50,431 nucleotides of DNA from Oscillospiraceae bacterium (GTDB taxonomy: Bacteria > Bacillota > Clostridia > Oscillospirales > SIG530). The translations under genes and the position numbers were made by a program. Location of the stretch: the NCBI GenBank assembly GCA_015067075.1, contig SVND01000014.1, forward strand, positions 1 to 50,431, given 5' to 3'. Of the stretch, positions 8,675-39,148 are shown in pieces; within the stretch, counting starts at the first letter, position 1; the number at the start of each line of letters is the position of its first letter. Under the pieces are notes generated by a model. It was given only the letters and a program-made list of their open reading frames with translations. It was not told the origin of the DNA and ran no database searches.

Positions 8675-8974
8675 TTATTCCGAATCTTTTTCCTCTATTC
8701 TTTCAAGCACGCACTTGTATCCGTTTTTTCCGTAATAAAGCGAGCGGTTAACTCTGCTTATGGTCGCCGTTGACGCCCCTGTTTTTTCAACGATATCGCT
8801 GTAAACAAGCTTATCAAGTAACAGCTCTGCAACGGCAAGACGCTGTGCCATAGCTTTGATTTCAAAAACGGTGCAAAGGTCCTCAAAAAAGTTGCGGCAC
8901 TCCTCCTCCGTTTTGAGAGCCAAAATCGCTTTGTAGAGGCGATCTGTGTTTCCATCCTTTAAATCGATATTCAT
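8675..8974 (-). CDS. YerC/YecD family TrpR-like DNA-binding protein
   Basis: A 99-residue helical protein matching the YerC/YecD family of Trp-repressor-like proteins. The first half (LYKAILALKTEEECRNFFED) is the family signature and the second half contains the helix-turn-helix (YSDIVEKTGASTATISRVNR). Its target is unknown; in Firmicutes these are putative repressors with no clear tryptophan role. Its start overlaps the recN stop by 4 bp. Confidence 0.9.
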   Translation of the reverse strand: MNIDLKDGNTDRLYKAILALKTEEECRNFFEDLCTVFEIKAMAQRLAVAELLLDKLVYSDIVEKTGASTATISRVNRSLYYGKNGYKCVLERIEEKDSE

Positions 8975-10662
8975 TTCTTGCCCGTCCTTTCTGCATTTGC
9001 TCCGTTTATCATTTCTTCTGCATTTTCAAGCGCCGCCTTCGTTATAGCACCGCCTGTGATTATTCTTGCTATTTCTTCTGCACGCTGTGCTCCGTCAAGA
9101 AGCGAAGCACTCGTAAATGTTCGGCCTTCCTTTTCACCCTTTACAACTACAAGGTGATTTGCGGCATAAGCTGCTATCTGCGGCAAATGTGTCACACAGA
9201 TGACCTGTCTGTTTTTTGAAACCTGCTGAAGCTTTTCCGCAAGTTTTTTTCCTGCTTTTCCGCTGACACCGCTGTCCACCTCATCGAAAATAAGCGTTCC
9301 GACAGTGTCACTTTCGGCTAAAATATTTTTGATCGACAGCATTATGCGAGAAAGCTCACCGCCTGAAGCTGTTTTTGCAAGGGGCTTTACACTTTCTCCC
9401 GAGTTTGTCGCTATCATAAACTCGCATTCATCTATTCCGTCCGCGCCGAAAAGCACGCCGCCTTTAGCATTTACTTTTCGCTTTAAGGATACGGAAAATT
9501 GCGCTTTTTCCATGGCAAGAAAATGAAGCTCTGCGTTTATTCTTTCAGACAGTTCATTTGAAATAGCTTTGCGCTTTTCGCTGAGTGTCTCTGCTTTTTC
9601 CAAAAGCTCCTTAGTAAGCTGTGAAAGCATCTGCTCCGCCTCCGCCACGTTTTCGGAGACAAGCTCTATTCGCTCCGCTTCCTCTTTCGCCTCGGCAAGC
9701 TGCGCCATGACAGCTTCATAAGATCCGCCGTATTTCCTGTATATTTTCTTTATCTCATCAAGTCTGTCGCCCACATTGTCGATGTTTTCTCCGCTGTCAA
9801 GGGAATAAAGCTGTGACGAAATTTCGCCGCTTATATCCTGAAGCTCATAATAAGCCGTACTCAACCTTTCCCACAGCTGTTCAAGCTCAGGTAAAAGCTC
9901 CTTTGCATTATTCATCAGCGACAGCGCCGTTCCGACAGCAGAAACAGTGCCATCCTGCTGTAAAACAGCTTCCGCGCCTGACAAAGCCGCCGTAAGCTTT
10001 TCCATGTTGCGCAATTTCTTTTCAAGCGCCGTGAGCTCCTCAAGCTCGCCCTCGGTTATGGCGGCTTGCTCTATTTCATTTATGCGGTATTTCAGCAGAT
10101 CCAGCTCATGAAGCTTTTTCTCTTCATTTTCACGGAAATCTTTTATCTGCCTGCGCAGTGCGACAGCTTTTTCATATATGACCTTATACTGCTCAAGCTC
10201 CTTTTCTGCTTTTCCGTACAGGTCAAGGTAGCCCAGATGCGCCCTCGGGTCAAGAAGAGACTGATTTTCATGCTGTCCGTGTATATTTATAAGGCGCGAG
10301 CCTATTTCCCTGAGCATCGCCAAGGGTGCAGGCACACCGTTTATGCGAACGCTGTTTCTGCCGTCTGCAGACAGATCGCGCTGTAAAAGAATAGTTCCGT
10401 CCTCATTTTCCGCCTGAATCTGCTTCAAAAGCTCACATACAGCATTATCTCCGCCGTCAAACTCTGCACTTACGCGTGCACGGGATGCACCTGTTCTTAT
10501 TATATCGCGCGAGCCTCTGCCGCCTGTGACAAAGCTTATGGCATCAACGATTATGGACTTACCTGCACCTGTTTCACCCGTCAAGACAGTAAGCCCCTTG
10601 CGCATTTCTATATCGGCGCGTTCAATTACCGCGACATTTTCTATATGAAGATATGTCAGCAT
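8971..10662 (-). CDS. recN: DNA repair ATPase RecN
   Basis: 563 residues, full length. Walker A is GETGAGKSIIVDA (near residue 30). Two coiled-coil arms (about 150-365) flank the central region. The C-terminal half has the ABC signature ASGGELSRIML and Walker B TLIFDEVDSGVSG, as in SMC-like RecN. RecN acts early in double-strand-break repair on the nucleoid. The argR-recN order is standard for Firmicutes. It starts 24 bp after argR and overlaps yerC by 4 bp at its end. Confidence 0.96.
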   Translation of the reverse strand: MLTYLHIENVAVIERADIEMRKGLTVLTGETGAGKSIIVDAISFVTGGRGSRDIIRTGASRARVSAEFDGGDNAVCELLKQIQAENEDGTILLQRDLSADGRNSVRINGVPAPLAMLREIGSRLINIHGQHENQSLLDPRAHLGYLDLYGKAEKELEQYKVIYEKAVALRRQIKDFRENEEKKLHELDLLKYRINEIEQAAITEGELEELTALEKKLRNMEKLTAALSGAEAVLQQDGTVSAVGTALSLMNNAKELLPELEQLWERLSTAYYELQDISGEISSQLYSLDSGENIDNVGDRLDEIKKIYRKYGGSYEAVMAQLAEAKEEAERIELVSENVAEAEQMLSQLTKELLEKAETLSEKRKAISNELSERINAELHFLAMEKAQFSVSLKRKVNAKGGVLFGADGIDECEFMIATNSGESVKPLAKTASGGELSRIMLSIKNILAESDTVGTLIFDEVDSGVSGKAGKKLAEKLQQVSKNRQVICVTHLPQIAAYAANHLVVVKGEKEGRTFTSASLLDGAQRAEEIARIITGGAITKAALENAEEMINGANAERTGKK

Positions 10663-10686: not shown

Positions 10687-11148
10687 TCAGTGATGCTTTA
10701 TCATCGCGGAAAGCTCCGCCGCAACAGTTACAGCCGACTCACTGCTTCGCATCGCAAGAAAGATAGTATCATCGCCTGCAATGCTTCCTACAACTGTCGC
10801 AAAGCCCAGCGCATCAATTGCCGCCGCCGCCGCATTTGCCATGCCTGAATACGTTTTTACAACAATAAGATTTACTGCCGTATCAACGGAAGCAAGGCTT
10901 TCACCTAAAATATTTACATATTTTGCCGTTGAAACTCTCGTTTGCACACCCTTCATTCCGCGGGTATATTTATGTTTACCGTTTCCGTCGGTGCTCTTCA
11001 TCAAATGAAGCGTGCGTATATCTCGGGAAATTGTCGCCTGCGTGACCTCGAAGCCGTTTTCTTGAAGTAAACCGAGGAGCTCCTCTTGGGTTTCCACATC
11101 ATTTTGTTCGATAAGATCAAGTATTTTTGCGTGACGTTGTGCTTTCAT
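10687..11148 (-). CDS. argR: Arginine repressor ArgR/AhrC
   Basis: The ATG at 11148 (153 aa, MKAQRHAKILDLIEQNDVET) is chosen because GGAAAGGG lies 8 nt upstream; an in-frame TTG at 11172 has no RBS. The N-terminal winged helix contains SQ-type recognition elements (FEVTQATISRDIRTLHL). The C-terminal arginine-binding/oligomerisation domain ends with GTIAGDDT-like VVGSIAGDDTIFLAMR, the Asp pair expected to contact arginine. It represses arginine biosynthesis and activates catabolism as a hexamer. It lies between nadK and recN as in many Firmicutes. No arg genes are in this window. Confidence 0.95.
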   Translation of the reverse strand: MKAQRHAKILDLIEQNDVETQEELLGLLQENGFEVTQATISRDIRTLHLMKSTDGNGKHKYTRGMKGVQTRVSTAKYVNILGESLASVDTAVNLIVVKTYSGMANAAAAAIDALGFATVVGSIAGDDTIFLAMRSSESAVTVAAELSAMIKHH

Positions 11149-11168
11149 AGCTTTTTCCCTTTCCTTTA

Positions 11169-12038
11169 TCAATCTGTATTTCTGACTAATTTTTCATTGA
11201 ATATATTAAAAAACTTGCGGTCATCCAGCCTCAATATATCTGTGCTGTACTTTGAACGGTTTATAACAACGGTATCACCGCAGGAAAGCTCCGCCGACTC
11301 CTCTCCGTCAACAGTTAAAAACGCTTGACGGTCAATAAGGTCGGGCGTTTTTATCTCTAGCACCGTTTTATCCGAAAACAAAACGGGTCTCATATTCAGT
11401 GAATACGGACATATTGGTGTGACGAGAATACTTTCCAAGGCCTGGTCAATTACAGGTCCGCCCGCCGACAGGGAATACGCTGTCGAGCCCGTTGGCGTTG
11501 CGATTATAACGCCATCCGCATTGTATTTGCGCATGGGAATACCGTTAACGCTCATATGCAAATGTATCACACGCGACAAGCTACCCTTTGATATTACAGC
11601 TTCATTGAGCGCATGAAAATGCGCCTGCTCTAAGCCTGCTCTCCACAGCTTTACGTTGAGCATCATACGCTTTTCAGCCGTATATTCGCCCTTGAAGTAG
11701 TCGGCAATTCTCGGTATCTGCTCCATTTCAAGAGAAGTCAGGTATCCGATATTGCCCACGTTTACACCTAAAACGGGGACCCGCTTCAGCGCCGCATGGC
11801 GAGCCGCTCGCAAAAGCGTGCCGTCACCGCCTAAGGTTATAACAAGCTGAGCATCGCAAAGCAACTGCTCATATTTTCCGAATACACAGCATTTTGATGC
11901 AAAAAAATCTCTGTCCGCCGTAAAATCAGCGGGAAGCATCACCGTGCAATCGTATTTTTCAAGCTCATTTACCATCATACGAGCCGCTTGAGTTGCAAGC
12001 TCTTTTCCTGTGTTAGGGTAAATAATTATTTTTTGCAA
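11169..12038 (-). CDS. nadK: NAD kinase
   Basis: 289 residues. The start is taken as TTG at 12038 (MQKIIIYPNTGKEL) because a GGAGG (12052-12048) sits 9 nt upstream. A GTG at 12056 would place that RBS inside the gene. The nucleotide-binding motif GGDGTLLRAARH (near 70) and the NADP/NAD motif DGVIIATPTGSTAYSLSAGG (near 160) are intact. It phosphorylates NAD to NADP in the cytosol using ATP or polyphosphate, depending on the enzyme. It directly follows dxs: the tlyA gene often found between these two in Firmicutes is missing. Confidence 0.95.
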   Translation of the reverse strand: MQKIIIYPNTGKELATQAARMMVNELEKYDCTVMLPADFTADRDFFASKCCVFGKYEQLLCDAQLVITLGGDGTLLRAARHAALKRVPVLGVNVGNIGYLTSLEMEQIPRIADYFKGEYTAEKRMMLNVKLWRAGLEQAHFHALNEAVISKGSLSRVIHLHMSVNGIPMRKYNADGVIIATPTGSTAYSLSAGGPVIDQALESILVTPICPYSLNMRPVLFSDKTVLEIKTPDLIDRQAFLTVDGEESAELSCGDTVVINRSKYSTDILRLDDRKFFNIFNEKLVRNTD

Positions 12039-12055
12039 AATATTCGACCTCCACA

Positions 12056-13900
12056 CTATTTATGTAAGATGGCTTCTTCTATGGACTGTTCGTCAAGACC
12101 GCACAGCTTCAAAAGCGTTTTTGTATCGCCGTGGGGAACAAAACCGTCCACCGCCCTTATATGATATCGGCATTTTATGCCCTGCTCCGCTATTGCGGCG
12201 CCAAGGCGCTCCGCAACGGAGCCGGCTTTTGCCGCTTCTTCAAAGAAAAACACCTCGTCGTATTTCGACAGCACTTCACAGATGCCTTGCGTATCGAGGG
12301 GCGCAATTACATTCAGCTTCATTACATCGCACACAACCTGCTTCTTATAAAGCTCCTTTACCGCGCCGAAAACGCGGGAGATCTCTCTGCCATACGTAAT
12401 AACGAGCGTCTTTGCTCCTTGTGAAGACATTCTGTAAATATCAAACGCGTTACCCGTGTATCTGCCCTTATAGCTGTCGGGGTCATCCTTGGGATAGCGC
12501 ACAGCGACAGCGCCTTCCACCTCAAAGCACGCCTTTTTCAGCATTTCCTTAAGCTCATCACCGTTTGCAGGGGCAAAAACTGTCATTTTCGGCATTGCGG
12601 TCAAAAACTGCACGTCGTTCATTCCGTGATGTGTTGCACCGTCTGCACCGACAAGCCCTGCCCTATCAACGGCAAAAACCACTTTTTGCTGTTGCAAAGA
12701 AACATCGTGCAGTATCTCATCATACGCCCTTTGCAAAAACGTAGAATACACCGCAAACACAGGTATCTTTCCGCCCTTCGCGAGCCCTGCCGCAAAGGTC
12801 ACCGCATGTTCCTCGGCAATTCCGGTATCAAAAAATCTATTCGGAAAGCTTTCCTTAAACTTATCAAGCTTCGTTCCGTCTGCCATTGCCGCAGTTATGG
12901 CGCAAATGCGCTCATCATCTTTCGCAAGCTCGCACACAGTATCGCCAAACACGTTGGAAAAGCTTTTTTTGCTTTCACCCTTTACCTCGCCCGTTTCCGC
13001 ATTAAATGGCCCAACACCGTGGAACTTTCCGGGCGCATTTTCTGCAGGAGCATAGCCCTTACCCTTGACAGTGCGCACGTGAATAAGCACGGGGCTGTCG
13101 ATCTCTTTAGCATATGTCATAACGTCGCAGAGCTGTTTGACGTTGTGTCCGTCAACAGGGCCGATATAGTAAAATCCCATTTGCTCGAAAAGTGTGCTTC
13201 GGAAAAAGTAATCCTTAAGCACCATTTTCATTACCGCAAGCTTTTCAAAAAGAAACTTTCCGCAAAATGGGATACCGCTGACAAACCGTTTAAAGCCTTT
13301 TTTGAAGGAAAAGTAGGACGGCTTTATGCGCAATTTTGACAAATAGCTTTGCACGGCGCCAACATTGGGCGAAATGCTCATTTCATTATCGTTAAGTATT
13401 ACAATAAATTTTTTACCGCTTTTTCCTGCGTTATTCAGCCCTTCATACGCCAGACCGCCTGTCAGCGAGCCGTCTCCGATGACCGCGACTGTAAAATCAT
13501 CGCGGCCGTCAAGGTCCGCGGCAACAGAAATGCCAAGTGCCGAGGAAACAGACGCACTGCTGTGTCCCGTTTTAAAAACGTCGTGCTCACTTTCCGCAGG
13601 ATCGGGAAAGCCCGATATTCCCCCGTAAGTGCGCAAGGTCGAAAAGCTGTCCAATCTACCTGTAAGCAGCTTATGAACGTACGCCTGATGGCCAACGTCG
13701 AAAATTATTTTATCCTTCGGGGAAGAAAAGGCATGATGAAGCGCGACGGTAAGCTCAACAACGCCAAGATTTGACGCAAGATGTCCGCCGTTATCTGAAA
13801 TTGTTTTGATCAAAATTTCACGTATTTCCCCGCAAATTTCCGTAAGCTTGTCAACGCTGAGGCTTGCAAGCCCGTCGGGTAGCTTCATTTTTTCAAGCAT
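12056..13900 (-). CDS. dxs: 1-deoxy-D-xylulose-5-phosphate synthase
   Basis: 614 residues, full length. The thiamine-diphosphate motif GDGSLTGGLAYEGLNNAG (near 142) and the N-terminal DVGHQAYVHKLLTGR are diagnostic. The transketolase pyrimidine domain (GIAEEHAVTFAAGLA) and C-terminal domain follow. It condenses pyruvate and glyceraldehyde 3-phosphate in the first step of the MEP isoprenoid pathway. It starts 20 bp after oapA with GGAG before the ATG. In many Firmicutes xseA-xseB-ispA precede dxs; here the OLE RNA and oapA take that place. Confidence 0.96.
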   Translation of the reverse strand: MLEKMKLPDGLASLSVDKLTEICGEIREILIKTISDNGGHLASNLGVVELTVALHHAFSSPKDKIIFDVGHQAYVHKLLTGRLDSFSTLRTYGGISGFPDPAESEHDVFKTGHSSASVSSALGISVAADLDGRDDFTVAVIGDGSLTGGLAYEGLNNAGKSGKKFIVILNDNEMSISPNVGAVQSYLSKLRIKPSYFSFKKGFKRFVSGIPFCGKFLFEKLAVMKMVLKDYFFRSTLFEQMGFYYIGPVDGHNVKQLCDVMTYAKEIDSPVLIHVRTVKGKGYAPAENAPGKFHGVGPFNAETGEVKGESKKSFSNVFGDTVCELAKDDERICAITAAMADGTKLDKFKESFPNRFFDTGIAEEHAVTFAAGLAKGGKIPVFAVYSTFLQRAYDEILHDVSLQQQKVVFAVDRAGLVGADGATHHGMNDVQFLTAMPKMTVFAPANGDELKEMLKKACFEVEGAVAVRYPKDDPDSYKGRYTGNAFDIYRMSSQGAKTLVITYGREISRVFGAVKELYKKQVVCDVMKLNVIAPLDTQGICEVLSKYDEVFFFEEAAKAGSVAERLGAAIAEQGIKCRYHIRAVDGFVPHGDTKTLLKLCGLDEQSIEEAILHK

Positions 13901-13920: not shown

Positions 13921-14553
13921 CTATTGCTGTTTTTTCCAAAAGCTGATATAGCTTATCAATTTAGCTGTCATAAAGACGATCTCTTTATTATAGGTCATCG
14001 CAAACCCTTTGCCCACAGCCTTACCGCCGACAGTCAGCGCGGAGGCGAGCGCCGTTACAACAAGGGAAAGCACGATGTCGTTTACATTATTAAAATAAAC
14101 CAAAAGCGCAGAAACGATTGCCGCAGACGTCGTACCGCTTATAATGCCTGCAATATCACCGATAACGTCGTTGCAAACGCTGGATACGCGCTCCGCATTT
14201 TTTATCAGCGCAAGTGCTTCACGGGAGCCGCGCACTTTTTTCGCCGCCATTGCGTGAAACTGTACGGGTGTTGCCGTAGCAACAGCTACGCCGATCATAT
14301 CAAAGAAGATACCGACGGCAACGATAAGGAGCAGTATCAAAAATGCGATTATAATGTTTACGGAATGCAGAGCATTTGACGCCGCGAAGGAAAAAATAAC
14401 AGACGTTATAAAGGTAATACAAAGAATGGTGACGATCCATTTTACGTCAACTAATTTTTTCTGTTGCTTTTTCACATTTTTTTGCGTTTCCTTGCTTCTT
14501 TTCACTTTTTCATTGCTGTTTTCCTCGCGTTTTCGAGGGGGAATCTCGTCCAT
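13921..14553 (-). CDS. oapA: OapA-like membrane protein (OLE RNA partner, DUF21-related)
   Basis: A 210-residue protein with a strongly basic cytosolic N-terminus (1-36, Lys/Arg-rich) and four predicted membrane helices at about 38-58, 65-93, 128-154 and 160-180. FFDMIGVAVATATPVQFHAMA and NDVIGDIAGIISG look like conserved DUF21/CorB-type membrane-domain motifs, but the CBS and CorC domains of transporters are absent. Size, four helices, basic tail, position just downstream of a roughly 620-nt structured noncoding region, and linkage to dxs-nadK-argR-recN match OapA, which in Bacillus halodurans binds OLE RNA at the membrane and affects magnesium and alcohol tolerance. The assignment rests on context and topology. 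The alternative is an unassociated DUF21-like membrane protein. Confidence 0.8.
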   Translation of the reverse strand: MDEIPPRKREENSNEKVKRSKETQKNVKKQQKKLVDVKWIVTILCITFITSVIFSFAASNALHSVNIIIAFLILLLIVAVGIFFDMIGVAVATATPVQFHAMAAKKVRGSREALALIKNAERVSSVCNDVIGDIAGIISGTTSAAIVSALLVYFNNVNDIVLSLVVTALASALTVGGKAVGKGFAMTYNKEIVFMTAKLISYISFWKKQQ

Positions 14554-14585
14554 GATAGGTTTCCTTTCTTGATAAATGTAATATA

Positions 14586-14613
14586 TGCCTGACAGACCGT
14601 TACCCGTCAGGCA
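14586..14613 (-). promoter_or_regulatory. Hairpin between the candidate OLE RNA and oapA
   Basis: TGCCTGAC and GTCAGGCA form a perfect 8-bp stem with a 12-nt loop, about 33 bp before the oapA ATG. No uridine tract follows on the minus strand, so it is probably not an efficient terminator. It may be a processing or stability element separating the RNA from the mRNA. Confidence 0.5.
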
Positions 14614-14624
14614 ATTAAATTAAG

Positions 14625-15245
14625 CCAAAAGGCTGATTTTAAAAAGGAAAATGGCGATATATACGATAAATCTTACGGCATAAGGTCGAGTAGGCTTTCC
14701 CCAAGCTTTACTCTCTGTCGCCATGAGAGCGGTTTCCCTTTAAAAAGCAAGGCAGCAAGTCGCCTTGTCTGCAACTCGATCGCCACTGAGTCCGTACTGC
14801 AATCCCATATATATTTCGGCGTCCGAACAGCCTAGAGGTTTTCCCTGACAGTCACGTCTGCTCTTTAGCCTCTTTTGCAGCGTCGATTTCAAACGGCAAT
14901 TACCTCTTCGTACCGGCCGGAACGAAGGCGGTATGGTTCCGTTATCCTTTTTGACCACTCAAGGCAGGCTACTCTGCACACAGCACATTATGTACCGCAT
15001 GACAGGTTTAATCCCGTACCGTAATCATCCGAAAATGGTCGGCATGACCACGCATACGGGTCTCCACGGTCGGCGGGTCGCGCACCGCATGCCATTGCGG
15101 GTCGCCCGAAGACCTATCTCCCAGCATCCACCCTGTACCGGCATACAAAGCAAACACAAGAAGCTTCATCGATATGCCCTTCAACGGCTTTTTAGGTCCG
15201 TCCTCGGAGCTGACAGATCTGACTAGGATACTGCGCCATTTTTAC
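14625..15245 (-). ncRNA. ole: Candidate OLE (ornate, large, extremophilic) noncoding RNA
   Basis: A 920-bp non-coding gap contains about 620 nt of base composition unlike the AT-rich flanks, with many internal palindromes, and no plausible gene. On the minus strand CAAGGC-N8-GCCTTG (14766-14747), CTTCGT-N10-ACGAAG (near 14925-14904) and GGTCATGCCGACC (near 15050-15038) can form hairpins, and GC-rich arms around 15110-15060 can pair. The 5' end is inferred from the promoter at 15281-15253. The 3' end is approximate. OLE RNAs are about 600 nt, lie directly upstream of oapA, and cluster with ispA/dxs/nadK/argR/recN genes; all of this is met except that ispA is missing. The identification is from context and size, not alignment. 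RNase P, tmRNA and 6S RNA were considered and do not fit. Confidence 0.78.
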
Positions 15246-15252
15246 AAATAAA

Positions 15253-15281
15253 ATTATACACGATTTTATGCATAAAGTCAA
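15253..15281 (-). promoter_or_regulatory. Strong sigma-A-type promoter for the OLE RNA/oapA/dxs operon
   Basis: TTGACT (15281-15276), 17-bp spacer, TATAAT (15258-15253) on the minus strand. Transcription should start near 15245, exactly where the structured region begins. The OLE RNA would then be the first product of the long operon. Confidence 0.8.
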
Positions 15282-15405: not shown

Positions 15406-15441
15406 AGCAAAAAAGACCTTATGCCGAAGCATAAGGTCTTT
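15406..15441 (-). terminator. Intrinsic terminator of the large SLH gene
   Basis: On the minus strand AAAGACCTTATGC and GCATAAGGTCTTT form a 13-bp perfect stem closed by the extra-stable C(TTCG)G loop, followed by a T tract. It lies about 37 bp after the stop codon. Confidence 0.93.
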
Positions 15442-15477
15442 CTCTTAAGCGTTACCGCTTTTTGCTAAAGTTAAAGC

Positions 15478-18400
15478 TTATTTCTTTGCAAGATAGAGCT
15501 CTGTTACGTAAGCATCGCCGTTAGCGTTGATTTCGTATCTCATCCAGCCGAGGTCATAACCCTTGATGTAGAAGTACTCTTCAAGGTCATAATACGGATT
15601 GAATGCAGAACCCTGTGCTACTGTGAATGCAGAGGATGTTGCGCCGAATGCACTCATGAAGCGAACCTTTGTAGATGTATCGATGATGAAGTTATCTCTG
15701 CCTGTTGCAGTGTAAACGCCAACAACATCGTCCTTAGCTGTGTATTCGAAGAAGATGTCACCGATCATTACGCCGAGAGTAGGCTCGTAGGAAAGGCCAG
15801 CAAGCTGCATGCTGTAAATGCCGTTGAGACCAGCCGGTCTGTCGAAGTCAACGCCGTCCCATTCATGGAAAGCAATGATCTCGTTGTTAGCTGTATTTAC
15901 AGTGTACATGTATGTGAAGCCCTTAGCCCAAGGATGAGCCATGTTGTTGATGAGTTCGTTAGCAATCTTGTATGTCTTTGTGCCGGAGATTTCTGTGAAG
16001 GAAACTGTCCAGCTCTTAACTTCGCCATTTTCGATCGTTGCGATCTGGCTGATTGCATGGATACCGATAGCTGTCTTTGTTGTGGGAGCAGCTGAAGAAA
16101 TTGTATTTACGAATACTACGCAATCGTTGTGGTATACGTTCTTAACGTTGGATACAAATGTATCGTCAGCGTAAACCATTGCGTTTGTAGCTGCTACGTC
16201 AGCAAAGTTGATGTATGTTGCAGCTTCAGCTGCGTCCTTCTTGCCGTTGAGGTTTGTATCTTCGAAGGAGAAGATAACTGCGTTTTCATCAAGCTGATAT
16301 CTTGTGTCAGCAATTACGCTGCTTGCGTTGATGAGGAGGTAACCTGTAGCCTTATTGAATGTGAGAGGATCGCCGGCGTTAGCCATTACGTTTGTCCATC
16401 TGTCATCAATAATGCTTGCCATTGTTACGAGTCTGCCGTTAGCATCAAGAGTATACTTAATGAACTCTGTGCCGCAGATGTCGAGCAATGCTGTGTATTC
16501 GGGGTTGACAACAGGTGTCATACCGCTTGTCTTGGAAACCCAAGTTGTTGTTGTGTTGTATACGTTTACAGCGCCTGTCTTGTCAAGCATCTGAACCTGT
16601 ACTGTCCAGTCAGGTGTTGCGAAGAGGTTGTTTGCGTTAAGGTTTACAGCAGTACCAGCAACAGCTGTGATGATACCGTAGTTGCCCTTAGCATCGTTTG
16701 TGCTGGAAGCGATAGGTGTTTCCATAGCCTTCCAGAACTTTGTGCCAGCCTTGTTCATAACAAGTGTGAAGGACTTATTGATGTTTGCATAGATGGAGTG
16801 TCCGCCTGCTGCAAGAACTTCTGTGAAAGCGCCCATGTATTCGTTGGAAAGTCTGATGTCGCCATCAAGAGCTTCGTAAACGCCGTCGCCGTCAACGTCA
16901 AGAACGAGCTTGTCAGAAGCTGTGATTCTGTAGCCGTCGTAGTTCCACATCATACCAGCGATAAGAGGAGAATAATCCTTGCCGTCAAGCTGGATCTTTT
17001 CAAGAGCAGCACCCTGATAGCTCATGTATGTGCAGTTACCTGTAACTGTCTGAGCCTTTTCAAGGTTGTAGTTCCACTGAGAACCAGCCCATACGGGTGT
17101 AACGATTACCCAATCGCCTTCAACTGCGTTGCCCCAGTCGTTGATTCTTGTGAAAGGTACGAGACCGTCGCCGAGAGCTGTAACCTTAGCGGAAGCGCCC
17201 CATGCGAAGCTTGTATCCTGAACCCAAGCGCTGCCATTCCAGTAGAAGTAGCCAAGGCCGGGAACATAGTCAGGTCTGTTGATACCACCCATGAAACCGT
17301 CAAAGTGGTCGCCAAGTCTGTCTGAGTAAACAACGGAGTTACGTCCGGGAAGGAGAGATTCATAGTATGCAAGGTTCATAGCACCAACGTTGCCTGCAGG
17401 AGAAGCAACAGAGGATGTTGTACCCCAGTCAAAGCCGTTGTGATATACGCAGTTGTGGCCAGCGAATGCTACGTAGCAGTTCTTGCCGTCAGCGCCTGTG
17501 AACATGAAGGAGCTTGTTGTGGGAGCAGCGTCGATAGAGGAAATCTCTACAGCGCCGTATGTGTCATAGCTGTTGCCAAGCTGGCCAGCGTTGAAGCTAA
17601 GTGTGAGGTAAGCGATTTCGATCTTGCCGTCGCCATCGTTATCGATGTACTTGTATTCACCGTACATTGCAGAACCTGCAAATGTGTCGATGAGAGCAGC
17701 ATTTGTTGCAAGCTTTGTGGAATAACCGTTAACGTTAACGTATGTGAATTCCTCGTTGCCTGCGAAGCCCTGCTGAGGAGCTGTTTCCATTTTGTATGCG
17801 GGGTTGATGTAGCCCTTGTTCTCTGCGTCATATGTGTATGTCTTGGAGTAAGGAGCCTTTACAACGTAGATCATCTTGTCAGCGCTATTGAAGATATCGT
17901 CTTTGTTAGCGTCAACAACGTAAGCGATAACACCGTGGCCGAAGAGGTCAGCAGATGTCTTGAACTTAAATGTAGCATCTCTGAGGCTGGGGTTGCGGAA
18001 GAGGCTCCAAAGAGAACCGTCCTGGAGATAATCATACTTGTTAAAGATGTCAACAATGAGAGAATCATAACCGTCGATAGCACGGATCGTTGTGGAGTCG
18101 CCTGTTGCGATAACAACAGCGTTGTAAGCTGTCATGTTGAATACAGCCTTATCGAGTGTGAGGCCCTTGCCATCTCTGAGGTAAGCGCTGCCGAGAGCCT
18201 TGAAGCACATGGAAGCAACTTCGCCTCTTGTAGCAGCCTTGGAGCCGCCAACAGCGATAGATGTGAGACCAAGTTCGTAAGCCTTTGCAAGACCTTCGTC
18301 AACTGTCTTGAGACCGTCATAACCGAGAGCACGAACAACGAGTGTTGCAGCTTCAGCGATTGTTACGTTGTCTTCAGGATCGAATTCACCGCTTGTACGG

Positions 18401-18747
18401 CCAAGGATAACAGCCGGATCAAGTGCTGTAGCATACTTTACGTAGCCGGAAGCCCAGTGAGTATTGGGAACGTCGGGGAACTGTGTGTCAGCAGATGTGA
18501 CAGCAGTTGCAACGTCGTTAGTGATCAATCTGTAGATGATTGTGGATACTTCAGCTCTTGTGATGTTGTTGTCGGGTCTGAATTCGCCGTTTGTGTATCC
18601 CTTAATTACGCCAAGTGCAGAGAGAACGCCGATAGCTTCTTCATTTGCAGAACCAGCCTTAACGTCTGTGTAAGCAGCACTTGCCATCATTGTAAGGGAA
18701 AGAGCAAAAACTAAGATAAGAGCCATTACTTTTTTAAGGTTTCTCAT
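15478..18747 (-). CDS. Large SLH-domain surface (S-layer-like) protein
   Basis: 1089 residues with a signal peptide (MRNLKKVMALILVFALSLTM, cleavage after SAA) and three N-terminal SLH repeats: about 26-70 (AIGVLSALGVIKGYTNGEFR, ITRAEVSTIIYRL), 88-135 (FPDVPNTHWASGYVKYAT, VTIAEAATLVVRAL) and 142-188. The remaining 900 residues are beta-rich and Asn/Thr/Ala/Tyr-rich, with aspartate-rich loops resembling calcium sites: NDGDGKIEIAYLTL, DVDGDGVYEALDG and DTNLNGKKDAAEA. The SLH repeats would attach it to the cell wall. Length, even composition and a perfect AGGAGGA site suggest an abundant S-layer or scaffold protein; no enzyme motif is seen in the C-terminal part. It lies downstream of the calcium-repeat protein with no terminator between them, so the two may share a transcript. 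Confidence 0.9.
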   Translation of the reverse strand: MRNLKKVMALILVFALSLTMMASAAYTDVKAGSANEEAIGVLSALGVIKGYTNGEFRPDNNITRAEVSTIIYRLITNDVATAVTSADTQFPDVPNTHWASGYVKYATALDPAVILGRTSGEFDPEDNVTIAEAATLVVRALGYDGLKTVDEGLAKAYELGLTSIAVGGSKAATRGEVASMCFKALGSAYLRDGKGLTLDKAVFNMTAYNAVVIATGDSTTIRAIDGYDSLIVDIFNKYDYLQDGSLWSLFRNPSLRDATFKFKTSADLFGHGVIAYVVDANKDDIFNSADKMIYVVKAPYSKTYTYDAENKGYINPAYKMETAPQQGFAGNEEFTYVNVNGYSTKLATNAALIDTFAGSAMYGEYKYIDNDGDGKIEIAYLTLSFNAGQLGNSYDTYGAVEISSIDAAPTTSSFMFTGADGKNCYVAFAGHNCVYHNGFDWGTTSSVASPAGNVGAMNLAYYESLLPGRNSVVYSDRLGDHFDGFMGGINRPDYVPGLGYFYWNGSAWVQDTSFAWGASAKVTALGDGLVPFTRINDWGNAVEGDWVIVTPVWAGSQWNYNLEKAQTVTGNCTYMSYQGAALEKIQLDGKDYSPLIAGMMWNYDGYRITASDKLVLDVDGDGVYEALDGDIRLSNEYMGAFTEVLAAGGHSIYANINKSFTLVMNKAGTKFWKAMETPIASSTNDAKGNYGIITAVAGTAVNLNANNLFATPDWTVQVQMLDKTGAVNVYNTTTTWVSKTSGMTPVVNPEYTALLDICGTEFIKYTLDANGRLVTMASIIDDRWTNVMANAGDPLTFNKATGYLLINASSVIADTRYQLDENAVIFSFEDTNLNGKKDAAEAATYINFADVAATNAMVYADDTFVSNVKNVYHNDCVVFVNTISSAAPTTKTAIGIHAISQIATIENGEVKSWTVSFTEISGTKTYKIANELINNMAHPWAKGFTYMYTVNTANNEIIAFHEWDGVDFDRPAGLNGIYSMQLAGLSYEPTLGVMIGDIFFEYTAKDDVVGVYTATGRDNFIIDTSTKVRFMSAFGATSSAFTVAQGSAFNPYYDLEEYFYIKGYDLGWMRYEINANGDAYVTELYLAKK

Positions 18748-18870: not shown

Positions 18871-19785
18871 TTACTTTATAACAACGAACGAAGAAACTAA
18901 ACCGAAGGGATTGTCGTCAGCACCGTTAGCAACCTTGTCGCCATCGATGTCATAGTCCCAAACGTTCTTTGTGCCGTCGCCGTCGATATCTGTGTCATAC
19001 TGGTTGGGGAGATCGTCGCCGTCTACGTCGAAGTCTTCATCGGGATAGAGCTTGTCGCCGTCAATGTCCATCGGATTCTTGTAGTTGTTTTCATAGTATG
19101 TTGCGTCGATGTCAGCGCCGTTGCCTTCTACCATTGCGATACCGTCAACATAAAGGTAACCGTCGATTTCTTCCTGCTCAGCAAAAGCGATTCTCATGCA
19201 AGCCGCTTTGCCTTCAACAGCTGTGAATGTAACCTTAACAAGCTGCCATTCATTTGTAACTGTTACGTTAACTTGAGGAGCACCTGCTGCCATATTGTTA
19301 GCATAGTTGCCTTCATGATAGGAAGCAACCTTGAGCTTATCGCCGAAGTTGTCGCTGCCCTTGATCATGTAGAACATTGTGTATGTCTTGCCGGCTTCAA
19401 CCTTGTTAGTTGTTATGTCAAGGAAAACGCCCCAACCGGGTGCATTGTCAACCTGAACGCCAGACTTGGAAAGATCAGCTACAAGAGCCTGAGCATCACC
19501 GTAACGGTTTTCACCATCGATGATAACGTCGCTCTGAACTGTCCAGAGTTTACTTACGCTACCTTCAGCGTAGCCCGGGAAAACGCTGCCGCCCGGATAG
19601 CTCCATGTGCTAATAAAACCTTCGCCGCACTGTGCGCCCCAAGGAGCAGAGTCGTAAACTACGCTTACGCTTTCTTCTGTTGTTGTCAGAAGATTGCCCC
19701 AGTAGATCTCAGCGCTTGTGGGTGCAAAAGCGAAGCAAGCGATCGCCATGCAAAGTACAAGTGCAAGGGATAATACTTTTTTCAT
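18871..19785 (-). CDS. Secreted protein with carbohydrate-binding-like module and calcium-binding (TSP3-like) repeats
   Basis: The ATG at 19785 (304 aa) follows AGGAGG and starts a signal peptide (MKKVLSLALVLCMAIACFAF). Residues about 35-220 form a CBM_4_9-like beta-sandwich (AGKTYTMFYMIKGSDNFGDK, then YLYVDGIAMVEG), closest in the window to the module of the SLH protein at 1-1167. The C-terminus holds tandem aspartate loops (DIDGDKLYPDEDFDVDGDD, then DTDIDGDGTKNVWDYDIDGD) like thrombospondin type-3 or dockerin-like calcium sites. Its role is probably binding glycan or surface structures in a calcium-dependent way. There is no anchor, so it may be released or associate with the SLH protein encoded downstream. 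Two copies of an operator-promoter module lie upstream. Confidence 0.85.
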   Translation of the reverse strand: MKKVLSLALVLCMAIACFAFAPTSAEIYWGNLLTTTEESVSVVYDSAPWGAQCGEGFISTWSYPGGSVFPGYAEGSVSKLWTVQSDVIIDGENRYGDAQALVADLSKSGVQVDNAPGWGVFLDITTNKVEAGKTYTMFYMIKGSDNFGDKLKVASYHEGNYANNMAAGAPQVNVTVTNEWQLVKVTFTAVEGKAACMRIAFAEQEEIDGYLYVDGIAMVEGNGADIDATYYENNYKNPMDIDGDKLYPDEDFDVDGDDLPNQYDTDIDGDGTKNVWDYDIDGDKVANGADDNPFGLVSSFVVIK

Positions 19786-19831
19786 TGTTTTTTTCCTCCT
19801 AATAAAATAGTACTGTCTATACTGTGATACT

Positions 19832-19886
19832 ATCATATTATATTTTGAGAAAAAAGTCAATAGATTTTATGTTACGATTATGTTAC
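19832..19886 (-). promoter_or_regulatory. Proximal operator-promoter module (copy A)
   Basis: On the minus strand GTAACA-N5-GTAACA (19886-19871, 11-bp period) lies 9 bp before TTGACT (19860-19855). A 17-bp spacer leads to TATGAT (19837-19832), and the start codon is at 19785. An 11-bp direct repeat abutting the -35 is the layout of OmpR/PhoB-family activator sites. The regulator is unknown. Confidence 0.7.
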
Positions 19887-26660: not shown

Positions 26661-26975
26661 TTACGCTAACTCGTCGGCAACTTCCGTATCGGATATTTCC
26701 GACCTTATGCTGAATAACAGCTTTCTTACCTCTGAATTCGTTACTTGAGCACCTGTTATGAGCTTATCTGCAGTTCTTTCGCTTTTTTCATAAAGCATTT
26801 CCGCAGGATATATCAGCTTCAGATGCTTTAGCTTTTTGTGCTTCGGTTTTTCAACTCGCCGTCCCTTGCCGTCAACAATGTCGGCAAAGCCGTTTTCGAC
26901 GCTTATCACCGCAAAAAGCTTTCCGCTGTCTCGTCCCGCTGTCGCGGTTACAATACAGCCACTGGATATTTCCAT
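26661..26975 (-). CDS. oapB: KOW-domain RNA-binding protein, OapB-like (L14e-type)
   Basis: 104 residues. The N-terminal KOW motif ([20 protein letters not shown], then [20 protein letters not shown]) folds like eukaryotic L14e, followed by a charged helical tail. In Firmicutes the gene between map and infA (YbzG in Bacillus) is of this kind, and OapB, which binds OLE RNA with high affinity in Bacillus halodurans, belongs to this family. Since the same window carries a candidate OLE RNA with oapA, OapB is the preferred call. OapB-like proteins also occur in genomes without OLE, so a ribosome-linked role is possible. It starts 4 bp after map with GGAGG and ends 16 bp before infA. Confidence 0.8.
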
Positions 26976-38796: not shown

Positions 38797-39148
38797 TTTC
38801 GCTTTTCGCCTCCTTAAAATTTGTCGCTACCGCTCTTTGTCAGCGGCTGCAATTTTGGTTTGGCATTCCTATTATTGAACACTTAGCCGTGCGTTTCTTT
38901 TTTTCGGCATAAAAAAGCCGGATAAGGTATGGTTTTATCCGGAATAAAACCGACACCCGCTCATCATACGCGCCGCAGATATCTGCGAACTTACTACGTA
39001 CTGCCGTCAAAGCATCAGACCACAGCATTCCCACGGAATAAATCCCGTGTTTCGTGCTTCAATTGGACCGCCCAATTTAAAATCGGACTTACTCCGCGGA
39101 AATTACCCGGTTTCCCGGCAACCTCCCGCATCATCGCAACAATCACGC
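38797..39148 (-). promoter_or_regulatory. S10-operon leader RNA with transcription attenuator
   Basis: About 350 nt run from the predicted start near 39148 to rpsJ. Upstream parts contain several possible hairpins (for example TTGCCGGG-N2-ACCGGGTAA-like near 39115 and CACGG-N9-CCGTG near 39050). At 38942-38911 CCGGATAA and TTATCCGG form an 8-bp stem followed by C and six T, an intrinsic terminator. Its 5' arm overlaps a competing perfect hairpin, GGTTTTAT and ATAAAACC (38951-38931). This is the usual architecture of a terminator/antiterminator switch before ribosomal genes, possibly sensing L4 or another operon product. A 64-codon frame inside the leader is not credible as a gene. Confidence 0.7.
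38911..38942 (-). terminator. Attenuator terminator in the S10 leader
   Basis: Stem CCGGATAA/TTATCCGG with a 9-nt loop, then CTTTTTT on the minus strand, 115 bp before the rpsJ start. It would stop transcripts before the ribosomal genes unless the antiterminator 38951-38931 forms. Confidence 0.75.

Follow-up and report, generated by a model that had tools for sequence, protein, structure and literature searches.

The window, by which we mean the whole 50,431-nt stretch of contig SVND01000014.1 (assembly GCA_015067075.1, labelled Oscillospiraceae bacterium), contains a 924-nt gap that runs from the start codon of oapA (14553) to the end of an SLH-domain gene (15478). Within this gap, the Rfam model for OLE (Ornate Large Extremophilic) RNA occupies 621 nt on the minus strand, which is shared with the genes 3' of the RNA. 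A first-pass annotation of the same DNA had proposed a candidate OLE noncoding RNA in a gene-free region of about 620 nt at 14625-15245; the region is real, but its coordinates were 10 nt off. The annotation had also read the neighbouring gene as a four-helix basic membrane protein followed by a dxs-nadK-argR-recN cluster. The membrane protein is now recognizable as OapA by its Pfam CNNM match, DxxxD motif and fold, and Pfam and TIGR matches place the remaining genes in the order described. The features discussed below are as follows.

8971-10662, minus strand: recN (TIGR00634, 526.4 bits)
10687-11172, minus strand: argR, arginine repressor (profile matches)
11169-12056, minus strand: NAD kinase gene (Pfam NAD_kinase domains)
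12056-13900, minus strand: dxs, the usual neighbour of ole-oapA (TIGR00204, 700.7 bits)
13921-14553, minus strand: oapA, 210 aa (Pfam CNNM, 31 bits; CNDVIGD motif; predicted fold)
14586-14613, minus strand: hairpin of 11 bp in the spacer that separates OLE from oapA (14555-14640 folds with z = -3.8)
14635-15255, minus strand: full-length OLE ncRNA (RF01071, conserved positions and covariation)
15253-15281, minus strand: sigma-70-like promoter, TTGACT-17-TATAAT (11 of 12 consensus matches)
15411-15442, minus strand: terminator-like hairpin and U run where the SLH gene ends (fold z = -5.1)
26661-26975, minus strand: oapB candidate, 104 aa (sole PDB match OLE-associated protein B, 7k9b, E 4.5e-5)

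The assignment of the RNA begins with cmscan, which matches model RF01071 to 14635-15255 with 455.7 bits (E ~1e-130), where the gathering score of the model is 50 bits. The alignment spans model positions 1-616 of 616 and is thus full length. When the model is run against the genome, a draft of 2.26 Mb that is 95.9% complete, OLE is found as a single copy, and the region alone returns the same match. This search had been suggested in the first-pass annotation, and none of the contrary outcomes named there came true: the model does match, no other family matches better, and the region does not look protein-coding. No other RNA family scores above its cut-off in the Rfam search of the region; isrJ (20.8 bits, cut-off 37) and GIR1 (16.3 bits, cut-off 100) were rejected on this basis. 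Protein coding was likewise set aside, as frames reach at most 125 codons from stop to stop and conservation tracks the RNA pairs. Judging from the sequence, we regard it as near certain that this stretch of the minus strand is a full-length OLE RNA, which is an ordinary, well-supported addition to an RNA class already known.

Transcription and flanking elements

The promoter listed above is a consensus match rather than a mapped start, and its score is equalled by 1% of shuffled upstream sequences. From its position, the 5' end of OLE likely lies at approximately 15246. An own-promoter signal of this kind is not uniform among the OLE loci of relatives. The OLE gene looks like its own unit because a strong terminator-like hairpin closes the upstream SLH gene. 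On the 3' side, the 11-bp hairpin is not followed by a long U run, and we found no clear intrinsic terminator between OLE and oapA. This hairpin is possibly a processing or attenuation element, and read-through from OLE into oapA is plausible. We infer that OLE would be transcribed from its own promoter and that the transcript would probably be shared, at least partly, with oapA.

It is appropriate to ask whether the region instead acts in cis, as a long and structured 5' leader governing oapA and dxs, and is not a free RNA. The next gene 3' of OLE is indeed oapA, only 81 nt away and in the same direction, followed by dxs, and the two are separated by nothing more than the hairpin just described, with no clear terminator. 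However, OLE and OapA are encoded on different contigs in genomes G123, G025, G028 and G001 of the order and are separated by about 1.7 kb in G102, and published OLE RNAs act in a multi-protein membrane complex. We consider a leader function in place of a free RNA to be improbable, and the two roles could coexist.

The gene directly upstream of OLE (15478-18747) encodes a protein of 1089 aa in which SLH domains form two stretches. The product of the adjoining gene (18871-19860) is probably secreted, matches CBM_4_9 weakly and has an Asp-rich repeat tail (DIDGDG...). Elsewhere in the window, an S10-Clostridia ribosomal protein leader RNA (39065-39142, minus strand; 42.2 bits, cut-off 35.1) precedes the S10 operon.

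RNA structure and local variation near P6

When placed on the Rfam structure, the window RNA forms standard pairs at 139 of the 159 consensus pairs and is identical to the consensus at 224 of the 249 strongly conserved (upper-case) positions. Covariation was assessed in a MAFFT alignment of 24 sequences, comprising the window OLE RNA and 23 OLE RNAs from the same order. Given the OLE consensus structure, 87.6% of the cells in this alignment are paired and two-sided changes are evident at 107 of 158 base pairs. The alignment scores 0.464 for covariation; shuffles give 0.186 and slid controls no more than 0.132, and none of 500 column shuffles matched the observed pairing or covariation. The weakest helix, helix 10 (50% of cells paired), resides in the long variable arm. 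Single-sequence folding of the OLE region yields a modest z of -2.4, which would be weak if taken alone. P7 to P9 are present according to the model alignment, both hairpins of the P12.2/P13 region carry GCGA tetraloops, and the G-C pairs of P6 are kept.

Two local details, a shortened J5/6 and a P6 that has no anti-Shine-Dalgarno mimic, may be of use to specialists. The J4a/5 sequence of the window RNA (AUCGAUGAAG) is conserved, whereas J5/6 reads AUA and is one nucleotide shorter than the UUAA of most relatives; variation at J5/6 also occurs in a few other Clostridia. The shortening falls at the proposed OapC kink-turn (J4a/5-J5/6), and OapC binding might differ accordingly in this RNA; the kink-turn bound by OapC was described by Lyon et al. 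(PMC9723947). As a separate observation, the OLE RNAs of family f8 (L083, L084 and L086) carry a self-complementary, AACACCACGAGUGUU-like insertion of about 13 nt at J5/6, which is the site where the kink-turn is proposed.

The CCUCC anti-Shine-Dalgarno mimic is a reported feature of P6 in the OLE RNA of Halalkalibacterium halodurans. It is absent from P6 of the window RNA (15060-15125, J5/6 plus P6) and is missing in nearly all of the approximately 45 relatives whose J5/6-P6 region was read. This absence fits the report that bS21 is still bound in vitro by mutants with an altered mimic sequence in which pairing is kept (PMC12054373). With a P6 of this kind, binding of bS21 to the window RNA might nonetheless differ.

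Partner genes and distribution in the order

The OapA protein encoded in the window is 40-47% identical to the relatives with which it was aligned, is basic (25 K/R versus 14 D/E), and carries its DxxxD motif as DVIGD at residues 129-133; CNDVIGD is invariant in 26 OapA proteins from Clostridia and Bacilli. Its AlphaFold model (pLDDT 87) has long helices at residues 37-63, 67-93, 120-153 and 159-187, predicted to be four transmembrane segments. The closest fold is that of the CNNM-type Mg2+ transporter MtCorB (Z 13.7, with 130 residues superposed at 2.4 A), and Foldseek matches the model to the CNNM fold with E 0.009. This relationship was found by fold search, as a PDB sequence search with OapA gave no significant match. 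No other protein encoded in the genome matches CNNM.

The oapB candidate sits between map and infA in a ribosomal protein operon, and no Pfam or NCBIfam name matched it. It lies about 11 kb from ole, such that two OLE partner genes share one contig. OapB is also common where OLE is lacking (51 of 90 such genomes), and its presence alone is therefore no proof of partnership. Our OapC candidate is an 82-aa, YbxF-like ORF of the L7Ae family beside rpsL, whose best PDB match is YbxF; a second L7Ae protein, YlxQ, encoded beside ylxR, was set aside in favour of it. A bS21 gene is present. The genome also encodes the sporulation markers Spo0A and SpoIVA, in agreement with the already published correlation between OLE and sporulation. 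There is no CorC_HlyC match in the genome and thus an MpfA-type exporter was not found, an absence that is not absolute in a 96% complete draft.

To place these findings more broadly, we used a sample of 147 genomes from the order of the window organism, taken to be Oscillospirales; the window genome is the sole member of its family there, and named relatives carry labels such as Oscillospiraceae, Butyricicoccus and Faecousia. OLE is present in 57 of the 147 genomes, and OapA is present in exactly the same 57. One extra weak OapA match, in G107, coincides with a 426-aa MpfA-like frame. MpfA, called by CorC_HlyC above cut-off, occurs in 8 of the 57 OLE genomes versus 81 of the 90 genomes without OLE (Fisher 3e-21). 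Ten families hold both OLE states, and the exclusion holds within families (Mantel-Haenszel p 2e-9), with counts that are stratified by family and not corrected for full phylogeny. Within a single order, these numbers reproduce the anticorrelation between OLE and MpfA that had been published before (PMC11332333). Against the general exclusion, five genomes of family f13 have both.

Full-length OLE RNAs are also present in Butyricicoccus faecihominis, Faecousia, Candidatus Woodwardibium gallinarum and ruminant-gut MAGs, and from such relatives we infer a gut habitat for the window organism. The first-pass annotation had drawn attention to OLE in gut-associated Clostridia. The presence of OLE is confirmed, but the surprise is lowered by earlier work that reported OLE RNAs from 2,822 Bacillota genomes, including anaerobic gut-associated clades (Fernando and Breaker, PMC11332333). 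The same study described reduced OLE variants from gut clades, in which OapB and OapC are largely missing.

The 25 of 249 strongly conserved positions that differ, and the J5/6 that is one nucleotide short, might point to an OLE gene that has decayed into a vestige and lost its function. We judge this to be very unlikely given the complete model match, the 139 of 159 standard pairs, and the intact promoter, oapA, oapB and oapC; moreover, the order's 57 OLE RNAs score from 304 to 470 bits and the window RNA lies in the upper part of this range. A minimal gut-adapted RNA that has lost its partners (Fernando and Breaker's variant 1 or 2), as is typical of the gut clades TANB77 and RF39 (PMC11332333), is just as improbable and is largely refuted by the presence of P7 to P9, of P12.2/P13 with its GCGA tetraloops, and of genes for OapB, OapC and bS21. 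The best explanation overall, which we hold with high confidence, is a genuine full-length OLE RNA with its full set of partner genes.

Proposed role and comparison with known systems

To our knowledge, few of the structured bacterial RNAs that still lack an assigned biochemical function are as large as OLE. Published work in H. halodurans indicates that OLE associates at the membrane with a dimer of OapA, that P12.2/P13 is the binding site of OapB and the P5/P6 region that of OapC and bS21, and that the complex adjusts Mg/Mn metal-ion balance and growth under stress. Relevant reports include those on bS21 as a partner (Wencker et al., PMC12054373), on carbon-source and metal phenotypes (PMC10898510), on a proposed membrane-spanning arrangement (PMC12265935) and on the RNA dimer (Kretsch et al., PMC12286853). 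By homology, a particle of OLE, OapA, OapB, OapC and bS21 would form in the window organism, and by analogy with the published system we think it probable that the same particle assembles there.

The distribution data invite a more speculative proposal, the one that we favour for the role of OLE. OLE together with OapA would replace MpfA-type Mg2+ exporters, and the RNA and its proteins would stand in for the cytosolic CBS/CorC module of MpfA, which is absent from OapA. A role for OLE-OapA in metal transport is a hypothesis that we advance tentatively. The stronger version, in which OLE and OapA constitute an RNA-gated divalent-cation exporter interchangeable with MpfA and lineages of the order have swapped one for the other repeatedly, we rate as somewhat unlikely. 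The within-family exclusion agrees with such interchangeability without proving it, and functional overlap of OLE and MpfA was proposed earlier by Fernando and Breaker (2024). The model that we find best supported, as a working hypothesis, is a membrane ribonucleoprotein assembled on a CNNM-like protein and substituting for MpfA in metal and stress homeostasis.

These findings extend the genes for a complete OLE complex, beyond the reduced variants, to ordinary anaerobic and apparently gut-associated Clostridia, where 'extremophilic' is a poor guide to the role of the RNA. Furthermore, families that are split between OLE and MpfA, together with the cultured human-gut species Butyricicoccus faecihominis, make the exporter hypothesis testable outside H. 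halodurans.

Among known systems, the MpfA, CorB and CorC exporters of the CNNM class resemble OapA in that its predicted transmembrane domain superposes on MtCorB, whereas OapA has an extra N-terminal transmembrane helix and the DxxxD motif and has no CBS or CorC_HlyC domains. Variants 1 and 2 of the TANB77 and RF39 gut clades have in common with the window RNA that OLE occurs in uncultured gut-type Bacillota. However, these variants have a shortened P7 to P9 or lack P7/P8 and have lost the OapB site, whereas the window RNA has its full length, in a genome that keeps the OapB and OapC genes. The H. halodurans ribonucleoprotein is alike in its full-length OLE, in the order of OapA directly downstream and then dxs, in its OapB, OapC/YbxF and bS21 genes, and in the DxxxD motif of OapA. 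It differs in that its P6 has the CCUCC mimic that the window P6 does not and its J5/6 is one nucleotide longer, and the window host is of an anaerobic, Clostridia type in which we saw no sign of extremophily. Finally, the OLE RNAs of Clostridium acetobutylicum and C. botulinum, observed as dimers by cryo-EM, belong to the same class, and by model alignment the dimerizing P3 to P9 domain is present in the window RNA.
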